Positions 12,746 to 16,274 of a DNA stretch of 64,000 nt are shown one piece after another. Under the pieces are notes generated by a model, which searched no databases, was not told the DNA's origin, and worked only from the letters and a program-made list of their open reading frames with translations. A program made the position numbers and the translations under genes. Source of the DNA: an uncultured Rhodospirillales bacterium (GTDB taxonomy: Bacteria > Pseudomonadota > Alphaproteobacteria > ATCC43930 > CGMCC-115725); NCBI GenBank assembly GCA_903828515.1, contig CAIKMD010000007.1, positions 62,001 to 126,000 of the forward strand, in the 5' to 3' direction. The first letter of the stretch is position 1, and the number at the start of each line of letters is the position of its first letter.

Positions 12746-13669
12746 ATGGCCGTTTCCCGACGCAAGAAGACCGTAACGGCGAAGAAGGCAGTGTCGGCCG
12801 GACGTCAAGGTCGTGCGCGCGACTCTGACGTTGAGGCGAAAAAGCCCGGTCTGTCGCGTCGCCCGCTCTGGGAAGGTCATTTGCGCCTGTCGCTGGTCAG
12901 TTGCCCGGTCGCGCTTTATCCGGCGACCACGCATACCAACGACATATCGTTTCATTTGCTCAATCCGAAGACCAATAACCGCATCCGCATGATTCCGACC
13001 GATCCCGACACCGGCCCGGTCGAGCGAAACGATCTGGTCAAAGGCTATGAGCTCGAAAACAACCGCTATGTCGTTCTGACGCCCGAGGATCTCGACGCGG
13101 TGAAACTCGAAACCACCCACACGCTCGACATCGAGCGCTTCGTCGATGCCGGCGACATCGACCGGCTGTACTGGAACGACCCGTTCTTCCTCCTGCCATC
13201 CGAGGATTCGGGCATCGAGGCCTATACCGTCATCCGCGACGCGATGGCCGATGCCGGCCGCATCGCCCTGGGCCGCGTGGTCATGCACACCCGCGAGCGG
13301 CTGATGGCGCTGGAGGCGCGCGACAACGGCCTGGTCGCCTATAGCCTGCGCATGGCGGACGAGGTGATCGACGCCAAAAAAGCGTTCCGCGACATCCCGA
13401 ATAAGAAACCGGATCGCCGGATGATCGAGATCGCCGAAAAGATCATCGCCCAGCAGGAAGGCCCCTTCGCGCCGGCCGAATTCACCGATCGTTATGAAAA
13501 GGCGCTGCGCGATCTCATCCGCAGCAAGGAGCGCGGCGAGAAGCTCGTGACCGCCGCGCCGCCGGAAGATACCAACGTGATCGATCTGATGAAGGTTCTG
13601 CAGCGCAGCCTGAAGGGAAGCGGAAAGCCCGCTGCCGCGTCGCCGGCGCGCAAACGCAGCGCCCGTTAG
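12746..13669 (+). CDS. ku: Ku-family DNA end-binding protein (NHEJ)
   Basis: A 307-residue bacterial Ku homologue. Ku dimers ring broken DNA ends and recruit LigD for non-homologous end joining. After a 40-residue basic N-terminal extension come the Ku core motifs: LWEGHLRLSLVSCPVALYPA, VERNDLVKGYELENNRYVVL, GDIDRLYWNDPFFLLP and LGRVVMHTRERLMALEARD. The C-terminus is Lys/Arg-rich, as in other bacterial Ku proteins where it helps DNA and LigD binding. A GGGAG site precedes the ATG. An exact EcfG-type promoter lies upstream. ligD is convergent, sharing a 4-base interlocked stop region. Confidence 0.95.
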   Translation: MAVSRRKKTVTAKKAVSAGRQGRARDSDVEAKKPGLSRRPLWEGHLRLSLVSCPVALYPATTHTNDISFHLLNPKTNNRIRMIPTDPDTGPVERNDLVKGYELENNRYVVLTPEDLDAVKLETTHTLDIERFVDAGDIDRLYWNDPFFLLPSEDSGIEAYTVIRDAMADAGRIALGRVVMHTRERLMALEARDNGLVAYSLRMADEVIDAKKAFRDIPNKKPDRRMIEIAEKIIAQQEGPFAPAEFTDRYEKALRDLIRSKERGEKLVTAAPPEDTNVIDLMKVLQRSLKGSGKPAAASPARKRSAR

Positions 13670-15672
13670 CGCTTGCTCTTTTCTAAGGCGCGGCGCGCGG
13701 CAGCGAGCGGCGTTGCCGATTTGTGCAGATCTCGCCACGGATCGGCCCGTTTCAACAAGGCACCGGCGGTGCGCAAGGTAAAGGCGAGCGGATCGAGGCC
13801 GTTTCGCAATTGCGACCAGGGCAGCGGCGTGGCAATCGGTGCATGCGGGCGTGCGCGCGGCGACCACGGCGCGACCGCCGTCGAACTTCGATCGTTCCGG
13901 AGATAATCGAGGAAGATTTTTCCGCTGCGCGCTTTCTTCGCCATGGTCGCGATATAGGCGTCCGGGCGGTCGGCGACCATCTGCAGGCAAAACTGGTGCG
14001 CGAAGTCCTTGACGTCCGGCCACGTCGCCGGATCGCGGGCGGTGCCCTTGATGGCGGCGGTGACATGCAATCCCTTGCCGCCAGTGGTTTTGACGAACGG
14101 CTCCAATCCCAAAGCCTTCAGCCGGTCGCGAACTTCCTTCGCGGCGGCGATGACGCGGTCGAAGTCGATATCGGGAGCGGGGTCGAGGTCGAAGATGATC
14201 CGCTCGGGCACGTCCGGCGCGTCGCGCTGGCAGCCCCACGGGTGCAGCTCGAGGACCGCCGCCTGGGCGAGGCTAACCAATCCGGGCTCGTCGTCGATGG
14301 CGAGATAAGGCTCGGCCTCGCCCGTAACCTTGATCGGTCGCGCGCCGCTCGCCTGTTGATGAGCGTGGCGCTGAAAGAATTTTTGGCCGTCGATGCCGTC
14401 GGGCGCGCGGACCAGCGAGAGCGGCCGTGCCGCCACGTGAAGCAGAATGCGGTCGGCGAAGGCCTCGTAGTGTTTCGCCAGGTCGAGCTTGCTGAAAGCC
14501 GGGTCGGGCTTCGCCGTCGGCCACATCGCCTTGTCGGGATGAGTGATGACGATGCCGGCGATCTCGACGTGCGGTTCGCCGGGTTTCGTCAGCGGGCGCT
14601 TGGGCATCTTGTCACCTCTGCTCCTCCTGCCGGTGGCGCGTGTCGGTTGCGCCTCGGGGACCACGGCGGATGCGGGCTTGTCCTCGCGCAAACCCTTGTA
14701 GCTCGCCTGTCGTAACAATCCTGCTTGCGTGATCGTGCCGAATTCGACCTCGGCGACCAGGGTAGGCTTCACCCACTGTACGTCATGCGTCCGATCGACC
14801 GCACCGGTAAACGGCGATTTGGCAACCTGCAACGGCTTGAGCTTCGACAAGAGCGCGCGCGACGTCGCGGGATTGAAGCCGGTGCCGACTCGTCCGAGAT
14901 AGATGAACCGGCCATCGCGGAAAGCGCCGACCAGGAGCGAGCGCAACGTTGTCTGATTGCCCCACCAGCCGCCGATGACGACTTCCTGTCCGGCCCGGCA
15001 TTTCGACTTGGTCCAGCTATCGCTGCGACCGGAATGATAGGGTGCGTCGAGTCGCTTCGAGATGACGCCTTCGAGGCCCAATCGGCATGCGGCATTCAGC
15101 ACGCTCTCGCCGGACGAACCAAAATGCTCGACGAAACGCAACCGTTTGGATCTCTTCGCGTGGAGATCCAGCAGATCTGTCAGGACGGCCTTGCGGTCGC
15201 GCAGGCCCAATTCGCGCAGGTCGCGCCCGTCGGCGTAAAGCGCATCGAACACGAAGAAGACAAGACCGGAGGTGGCCGCTTCCGACAAAGCCTGCTGAAG
15301 CGCGCCGAAATCGGCGACGCCGTTGGCATCGAGCGCGCAAATCTCGCCATCGATCAGGCAGTCGGGCAGGGCGTCGCCATCGCGCGCGATTTCGGGAAAC
15401 CGGGTCGTCCAATCCAACCCGTTTCGCGTCAGCAATCGTGCCTTGCGGTCTTCGACGCGCATCTGCACGCGATAGCCGTCGAATTTGATTTCGTGGACCC
15501 AGCCTGGGGTGCCCGGCGGAGCCGATACGATGCGGCACAATTGCGGTTTGACGAATTTCAGAAGCAGCGCGGTTCGGCCTAGACCTTGCGTCGCTTTAGA
15601 CTCTTTTTTTTTGACTCGGCGTTTCGCGCAACGGGTGATGCGGTTACCGATGTCGGGGGTCGGCTGTTCCAT
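13666..15672 (-). CDS. ligD: LigD ligase-polymerase part (separated from its nuclease domain by a frame change)
   Basis: This frame carries the ATP-dependent ligase domain (catalytic Lys in HEIKFDGYRV, DGEICALD, then GLEGVISKR) and, after a linker, the primase-polymerase domain (DLDPAPDIDFDRVI with the Asp pair, TTGGKGLHV). These join ends and fill gaps in NHEJ. If translated alone it could start at ATG 15672 (668 residues), but there is no convincing ribosome site. Normal LigD of the Pseudomonas layout is one chain, nuclease-ligase-polymerase, about 840-870 residues. Here the nuclease domain (15579-16274) is in another frame with an A9 run at the overlap; one extra A would fuse them. Confidence 0.85.
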   Translation of the reverse strand: MEQPTPDIGNRITRCAKRRVKKKESKATQGLGRTALLLKFVKPQLCRIVSAPPGTPGWVHEIKFDGYRVQMRVEDRKARLLTRNGLDWTTRFPEIARDGDALPDCLIDGEICALDANGVADFGALQQALSEAATSGLVFFVFDALYADGRDLRELGLRDRKAVLTDLLDLHAKRSKRLRFVEHFGSSGESVLNAACRLGLEGVISKRLDAPYHSGRSDSWTKSKCRAGQEVVIGGWWGNQTTLRSLLVGAFRDGRFIYLGRVGTGFNPATSRALLSKLKPLQVAKSPFTGAVDRTHDVQWVKPTLVAEVEFGTITQAGLLRQASYKGLREDKPASAVVPEAQPTRATGRRSRGDKMPKRPLTKPGEPHVEIAGIVITHPDKAMWPTAKPDPAFSKLDLAKHYEAFADRILLHVAARPLSLVRAPDGIDGQKFFQRHAHQQASGARPIKVTGEAEPYLAIDDEPGLVSLAQAAVLELHPWGCQRDAPDVPERIIFDLDPAPDIDFDRVIAAAKEVRDRLKALGLEPFVKTTGGKGLHVTAAIKGTARDPATWPDVKDFAHQFCLQMVADRPDAYIATMAKKARSGKIFLDYLRNDRSSTAVAPWSPRARPHAPIATPLPWSQLRNGLDPLAFTLRTAGALLKRADPWRDLHKSATPLAAARRALEKSKR

Positions 15673-16274
15673 ACTTTCGGCTTCTTGCCGCCGGCGATCT
15701 CGACCAGGGTGCGACCCGATTTCACCGATGTATCGGCGGCCAGAAGCGCATCGGGCTTGTCGGGCTTGGCGGCGACATCCTTTTCCTTGATGAGAAGCCA
15801 ATTGTGGTGCGGCTTGCCGCGCCCCTTCGCAGGCTTGTCCCGCATATGGACAAGGGCCCAGCCGCCTTTCATCCGCTCGCCGTCGAGCGTGAATTTGATA
15901 TGGCCCTCGGCCAGCGCGGCCTCAGGTGACTCGTCGCCTTCGGGAATCCAGGTGCCGCGATCCCAAAGCTGAACCGTTCCGCCGCCATATTGGCCTTCCG
16001 GAATGATGCCTTCGAAGGTGCCGTAATCGATCGGATGATCCTCGACCTCGACCGCGAGGCGTTTGGTGGCGGGGTCGAGCGATGGCACCTTGGTCACCGC
16101 CCAGGATTTGTAAACCCCATCGAGTTCAAGCCGCAGATCGTAATGCAGCCGCGTGGCGTCGTGACGCTGCACGACGAAGCGAAGCGCCTTGGCGGAGCCG
16201 CGCGCCACGCGACCGCGCGGCTCCGCCGTGCGGGTAAAATCACGCTTGGCGTGATAAGTCGAGAGCGCGCGCAT
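15579..16274 (-). CDS. ligD: LigD 3'-phosphoesterase (nuclease) domain, separate frame
   Basis: 231 residues holding the LigD phosphoesterase domain: RHDATRLHYDLRLE and EDHPIDYGTFEGIIPEGQYG carry the His and Asp metal ligands. It trims 3' ends before ligation. The domain is complete and is followed by a Lys-rich linker (NAESKKKSLKRRKV) that stops at 15579, inside the overlap with the ligase frame. The chain length before the stop matches the usual domain plus linker, and the linker is also where this fusion would cross the A9 run. The ATG at 16274 follows the preceding gene's stop by eight bases, so it is probably co-transcribed with it. Frameshift, slippage or sequencing error are discussed in the findings. 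Confidence 0.85.
   Translation of the reverse strand: MRALSTYHAKRDFTRTAEPRGRVARGSAKALRFVVQRHDATRLHYDLRLELDGVYKSWAVTKVPSLDPATKRLAVEVEDHPIDYGTFEGIIPEGQYGGGTVQLWDRGTWIPEGDESPEAALAEGHIKFTLDGERMKGGWALVHMRDKPAKGRGKPHHNWLLIKEKDVAAKPDKPDALLAADTSVKSGRTLVEIAGGKKPKVWNSRPPTSVTASPVARNAESKKKSLKRRKV
15604..15612 (-). other. A9 slippery run in ligD
   Basis: On the coding (minus) strand nine consecutive A residues lie between GAGTC and GAGTCT. Reading one A twice, or inserting one A in the mRNA, moves ribosomes from the nuclease frame into the ligase frame. Confidence 0.7.

Follow-up and report, generated by a model that had tools for sequence, protein, structure and literature searches.

A conserved A8-A9 run at the phosphoesterase-ligase junction of split ligD genes in Alphaproteobacteria, a putative site of programmed recoding

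Background

Bacterial NHEJ centres on the enzyme LigD, usually regarded as a single, fixed chain of several domains. The conventional protein (NHEJ_ligase, TIGR02776-02779) carries 3'-phosphoesterase (PE), ligase (Lig) and polymerase (Pol) domains in one continuous ORF, and 'nonconventional' NHEJ, with the LigD domains on separate proteins, has also been described (PMC7719229). Several recoding systems are close in design to the gene reported below. In dnaX of Thermus thermophilus, a cellular DNA-metabolism gene, slippage at a sense-strand A9, an established length for slippage by bacterial RNA polymerase, gives two product lengths, the long one by standard decoding and the short one by slippage (PMC1088944). 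In mxiE of Shigella (U run; PMC1088944) and tssM of Citrobacter rodentium (PMC4256274), both enterobacterial secretion-system genes, slippage joins two ORFs into a longer protein. The third type is the -1 ribosomal frameshifting of E. coli dnaX and IS elements, for which A_AAA_AAG is a classic heptamer (PMC4066793). A search of the frameshifting/slippage, GeneTack, heptamer and recoding literature found no published case of LigD recoding; a 2011 pilot study on disrupted ORFs lies outside that scope.

Here we describe a ligD gene in a 64,000-nt stretch of DNA (the window) from an uncultured Rhodospirillales bacterium. Like Thermus dnaX, it is a cellular DNA-metabolism gene with A9 on the sense strand and is predicted to yield two product lengths by slippage, but the predicted roles are reversed, with the short product coming from standard decoding. 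As in mxiE and tssM, slippage would join two ORFs into a longer protein, but the protein is a DNA-repair ligase and the arrangement is kept across a clade of Alphaproteobacteria. It shares with E. coli dnaX and the IS elements the -1 direction and an in-frame A_AAA_AAG (in the window and in G067, G107, G114 and G124-G126), but has neither an upstream Shine-Dalgarno-like stimulator nor a consistent downstream hairpin. All three domains of conventional LigD are present in the order PE-Lig-Pol, although not in one continuous ORF. A separate PE, as in 'nonconventional' NHEJ, is one predicted product, but here the separate state would stem from a shift site able to produce the fusion as well. From the sequence comparisons below, we put at about 78% the probability that this NHEJ ligD is functional and yields its full-length product through programmed recoding at the conserved A8-A9 run that separates PE from ligase.

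Results and Discussion

The split ligD gene of the window

The features of the locus are listed in Table 1. The PE ORF starts with an ATG at 16274 (minus strand), and the Lig-Pol frame, which is -1 relative to the PE frame, ends at 13666. An earlier note, made from the letters of the window, had placed the two halves in different frames with an A9 run at 15604-15612 in their overlap and had predicted a PE-ligase-polymerase chain of about 870 residues upon addition of one A. Re-reading of the ORFs and the run coordinates bore out the first point, and the chain with one added A was computed to be continuous over 869 residues; removal of one A leads to an immediate stop. The note was also right about the different frame of the ligase but not about its opening at 15801, since the frame is open from about 15921 and 15801 is only its first TTG.

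Table 1. Coordinates of the ligD and Ku features in the window
Feature	Positions	Strand	Evidence or remark
ORF 1: LigD 3'-phosphoesterase (PE) domain and basic tail, 231 aa, TAG stop	15579..16274	-	TIGR02777 E=1.6e-65, PF13298 2.4e-43
A9 on coding strand (T9 on +), proposed slippage site	15604..15612	-	A9/A8 kept in 12/15 split relatives
PE frame past the run: basic tail SLKRRKV, then stop; dual-coding with ligase frame	15579..15603	-	
LigD ligase and polymerase domains, predicted to be entered from PE frame via -1 shift (or +1 A)	13666..15612	-	TIGR02779 1.4e-93, TIGR02778 6.7e-84
Nearest upstream ATG of ligase frame, within codons of a conserved VW motif	15670..15672	-	Weak candidate for independent initiation
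Ku gene, convergent with ligD, NHEJ partner	12746..13669	+	TIGR02772 9.2e-81

LigD is expected to be a single ORF of about 850-900 aa; the window gene occupies two frames, and at their junction it has nine A, the minimum length (at least 9 A/T) set here for a slippage run. The run is the sole homopolymer of at least 8 nt in the 64-kb window. It is read in the PE frame as TCA AAA AAA AAG AGT, which places the heptamer A_AAA_AAG in frame. The profile scores exceed the curated cut-offs in all three domains (TIGR02777, 219.6 bits; TIGR02779, 313.4 bits; TIGR02778, 281.4 bits), and the domain order is that of the Alphaproteobacteria. No second LigD-type match was found in the source genome. The stop codons of the Ku gene and ligD (13666-16274) lie in a 4-nt overlap of the two genes.

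Recurrence of the run and the split

A scan for ligD across 84,980 species, each represented by one genome, yielded 80 ligDs, the five nearest to the window gene being L002 (75% identity) and L003-L006 (53-56%). In all five, the PE and ligase frames differ by the same -1 split and exactly A9 is present at the junction, which is the outcome of the comparison across related genomes that the earlier note had asked for. The farther ligDs are nearly all single ORFs, with one isolated split, of another cause, among the next 70 or so. The five relatives all belong to one family of 96 species, which lies outside the order of the window according to rpoB and the group codes. A ligD search across this family, in which each junction was read, gave fifteen split ligDs. 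They fall in a single clade, and every one has its ligase in the -1 frame; about 30 further ligDs of the family are unsplit. The junction carries A9 in 9 of the 15 (G043, G044, G045, G046, G047, G065, G067, G107 and G114) and A8 followed by G in three (G124, G125 and G126), while the remaining three (G092, G098 and G099) have no long run. No further A-run ligD was detected in 43 genomes of the window's own genus, family and order, and a class-wide draw of 385 genomes returned only the window and one member already known. The recurrence of the run and the split in relatives is far beyond chance, with the reservation that these relatives are mostly MAGs whose kinship prevents genome counts from being taken as independent events.

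This distribution bears on a homopolymer error of sequencing or assembly, an alternative raised in the earlier note. Long A-runs are error-prone on some platforms, but the A9/A8 split is present in about a dozen independent assemblies, in three of which ligD lies on multi-Mb contigs, and the nearest relatives have the identical A9 and -1 split; we therefore reject this explanation as next to impossible.

Sporadic splits outside the clade (L029, L048, L101 and L182 of G111) were considered and set aside as a different phenomenon, with no homopolymer at the break; they are likely to be mutations or assembly errors.

Selection on both products

Between the window and G043, dN/dS is about 0.19 for PE (dS about 1.0) and about 0.18 for Lig-Pol (dN 0.18, dS 1.03), and other gene pairs agree (about 0.2). 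These values weigh against a pseudogene or a recent inactivating indel, the other alternative of the earlier note. The frames are indeed disrupted, and broken ligDs do occur sporadically elsewhere (L048, L101 and G111). However, the sporadic cases lack the run and are broken within or after the conserved PE domain, whereas in the clade the split is conserved, dN/dS stays near 0.2 in both halves of the gene with dS at about 1, the domains are intact and Ku is retained. Inactivation is thus rejected as highly improbable. Retention of A9 and the -1 split in the nearest relatives, together with purifying selection on both halves, supports the note's remaining alternative, slippage control, and argues strongly for conserved recoding rather than error or decay.

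The PE protein of standard decoding may have a role of its own. Past the run, the zero-frame PE tails of 13 genes extend for 3-21 codons, are basic in every case and together contain 62 K/R and 0 D/E among 127 residues; the overlapping ligase frame has 21 K/R and 25 D/E among 140 residues, the two compositions not being independent because basic codons in one frame skew what the other encodes. The PE tail of the run-less G092, G098 and G099 is of the same basic kind. The absence of acidic residues from the PE-frame tails suggests that PE is also made as a free product in its own right, basic tail included.

Initiation of the ligase half

The split genes differ in whether the ligase half could be started on its own. 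In G046 and G125, no ATG, GTG or TTG occurs in the ligase frame from its opening at the run to the ligase core FVxP, and hence a shift within the run seems obligatory for ligase synthesis. The window, G043 and G107 lack a ligase-frame start both after the run and in the roughly 90 nt upstream of the PE stop, and one remote upstream candidate is left in each; that of the window (ATG at 15672) has no convincing Shine-Dalgarno-like sequence. A start codon at or near the first stop is absent from these five genes and present in other members. The starts available outside the five take several forms: i) an ATG (MPxFV) directly ahead of the ligase core in several A-run members, ii) an ATGA overlap of the PE stop with the ligase frame (G098, G099 and G114), iii) a GTGA overlap (G092, G124 and G126), and iv) an ATG 5-41 nt beyond the PE stop in several other members. 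Reinitiation may contribute in members with an ATG near the core or with ATGA/GTGA overlaps. All three run-less split genes (L160 of G092, L165 of G098 and L163 of G099) have a start-stop overlap and have probably switched to translational coupling.

Such starts, as well as the ATGs 5-41 nt past the PE stop, are what would be expected after gene fission with translational coupling, a model in which two separate proteins are made, Lig-Pol by termination-reinitiation or internal initiation downstream of PE, and the A-run merely encodes a Lys-rich tail. Split sets of NHEJ domains are known (PMC7719229), and reinitiation at ATGA/GTGA can explain the three run-less members. We nevertheless consider fission unlikely, given that G046 and G125 lack any usable start ahead of the core and that a start near the PE stop is missing from the window, G043 and G107. 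It also leaves unexplained why A8-A9 is retained in GC-rich genes that use AAG and why the ligase frame opens exactly at the run, and loss of the run is confined to genes with start-stop overlaps.

Maintenance of the run

In 42,767 nt from 18 ligDs of the group, no A-run longer than 6 was found outside the junction. AAA accounts for 0.11-0.62 of the Lys codons in these ligDs and is the minority codon in most; in G125 its share is 0.11, yet AAA AAA AAG is present at the site. Among the genes, the run is found in either of two codon phases, in two lengths and with G or C as the next base, so what is kept is the run itself rather than a peptide or a codon pattern. In six genes (G044, G045, G046, G124, G125 and G126), a TAA of the -1 frame overlaps or abuts the run at its start, with the PE stop about 12-40 nt further on, so that exchange of frames is confined to 19-43 nt, always with the run inside. 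The linkers of the predicted fusions (38-67 aa) overlap in length with those of unsplit relatives (mostly 25-61 aa). A few of the family's unsplit genes (G090, G127 and G146) likewise contain in-frame A-runs of 8-9, an indication that Lys-rich linkers yield some runs by chance.

The lengths of the runs also bear on phase variation, by which replication slippage of the DNA would alter the length of A9, so that cells would differ in whether the full-length protein is switched on. In favour of this, A9 tracts are mutable and a change of one base would bring the two frames together. However, random switching predicts some fused A10 or A7 alleles, whereas all 13 run-bearing genes, including that of the window, are non-fused in spite of two phases and two lengths. 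A10 is found in none of them, though each is one base away from a simple fusion at a presumably mutable tract. Phase variation is accordingly very improbable.

Two unsplit ligDs with in-frame runs are worth describing. L180 (G090), a basal member of the clade, has an in-frame heptamer within AAA AAA AAG AAG at the PE-ligase junction; a -1 shift there would truncate the chain to a PE product, as in dnaX and as the mirror image of the split genes. In the distant L197 (G146), an in-frame A9 lies in the linker (junction at 1713), and slippage would truncate the protein after PE.

Proposed mechanism

According to the recoding reading, standard decoding would yield PE as a free protein that ends in a short basic tail. 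If RNA polymerase slipped on the run and added one A (A10 mRNA, or alternatively A7), the PE-ligase-polymerase fusion would result, and a -1 ribosomal shift on A_AAA_AAN could give the same fusion by another route. The purpose may be a supply of extra free PE that cleans 3' ends beside Ku-LigD repair.

The in-frame pattern X_XXY_YYZ of ribosomal shift sites occurs in the window as A_AAA_AAG and in the other run-bearing relatives as A_AAA_AAG, A_AAA_AAC or A_AAA_AAA, although any run of A8-A9 supplies such a heptamer almost automatically. No Shine-Dalgarno-like motif was found near the run, and the z-scores for downstream hairpins are not consistent, with single exceptions such as G067 (z -2.9). 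Together with the indifference of the run to phase and next base, the lack of SD-like or consistent hairpin stimulators favours polymerase slippage in the A9 genes. With moderate confidence, we assign RNA polymerase about two chances in three of being the main route in the cell, and the ribosome about one in three. A8 is a weak length for polymerase slippage, and the genes with A8G (G124-G126) are most likely ribosomal or mixed.

If the recoding site is genuine, some bacteria would need the 3'-end-processing domain of LigD both free and fused, and a chromosomal DNA-repair gene would join the few cellular genes with programmed slippage beyond mobile elements, dnaX and secretion regulators. In automatic annotation such ligDs end up split or marked as pseudogenes, with the result that genome surveys would score NHEJ in these species as 'nonconventional' or broken. 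The independent alternatives within the clade (run, start-stop overlap and re-fusion) make the question directly testable.

History of the locus

In a tree of PE and Lig-Pol with 33 rows, the window and the split genes fall in a clade of 17 rows (bootstrap/SH-aLRT 99/97), within which the window ligD groups with those of G043 and G088 (100/100). The ligDs of the window's own genus and family are located elsewhere in the tree. Since the window ligD lies inside the clade of another family, apart from those of its own genus and family, it was probably acquired horizontally. Among the loci compared, all from outside the window's own family, the window Ku is likewise closest to the Ku of the family with the split ligDs (70-73% identity, versus about 60% for Caulobacteraceae).

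Three changes of the split state are required by parsimony. In L153 (G088), the sister of the window and G043 copies, the frames have been re-fused, the linker is short and the A-run is missing; in the unsplit G090, an A8G lies in frame. Loss of the run has occurred at least twice (once in G092 and once in G098 plus G099), in every case in genes that possess a start-stop overlap. We hold it a little better than an even bet that this alphaproteobacterial clade sets the ratio of free, DNA-binding PE to complete LigD by slippage at A8-A9, and that the switch moved between orders with the ku-ligD block and was replaced in some lineages by start-stop coupling or, once, by re-fusion, which would make the clade a natural series of different answers to one two-product problem.

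Ku was found in 16 of the 17 relatives searched, mostly adjoining ligD. The convergent Ku-ligD pair is common to most genomes with a split ligD, and the two genes may have been transferred together. In G092, two Ku genes and a second ligase gene lie about 55 kb apart on one contig (C7).
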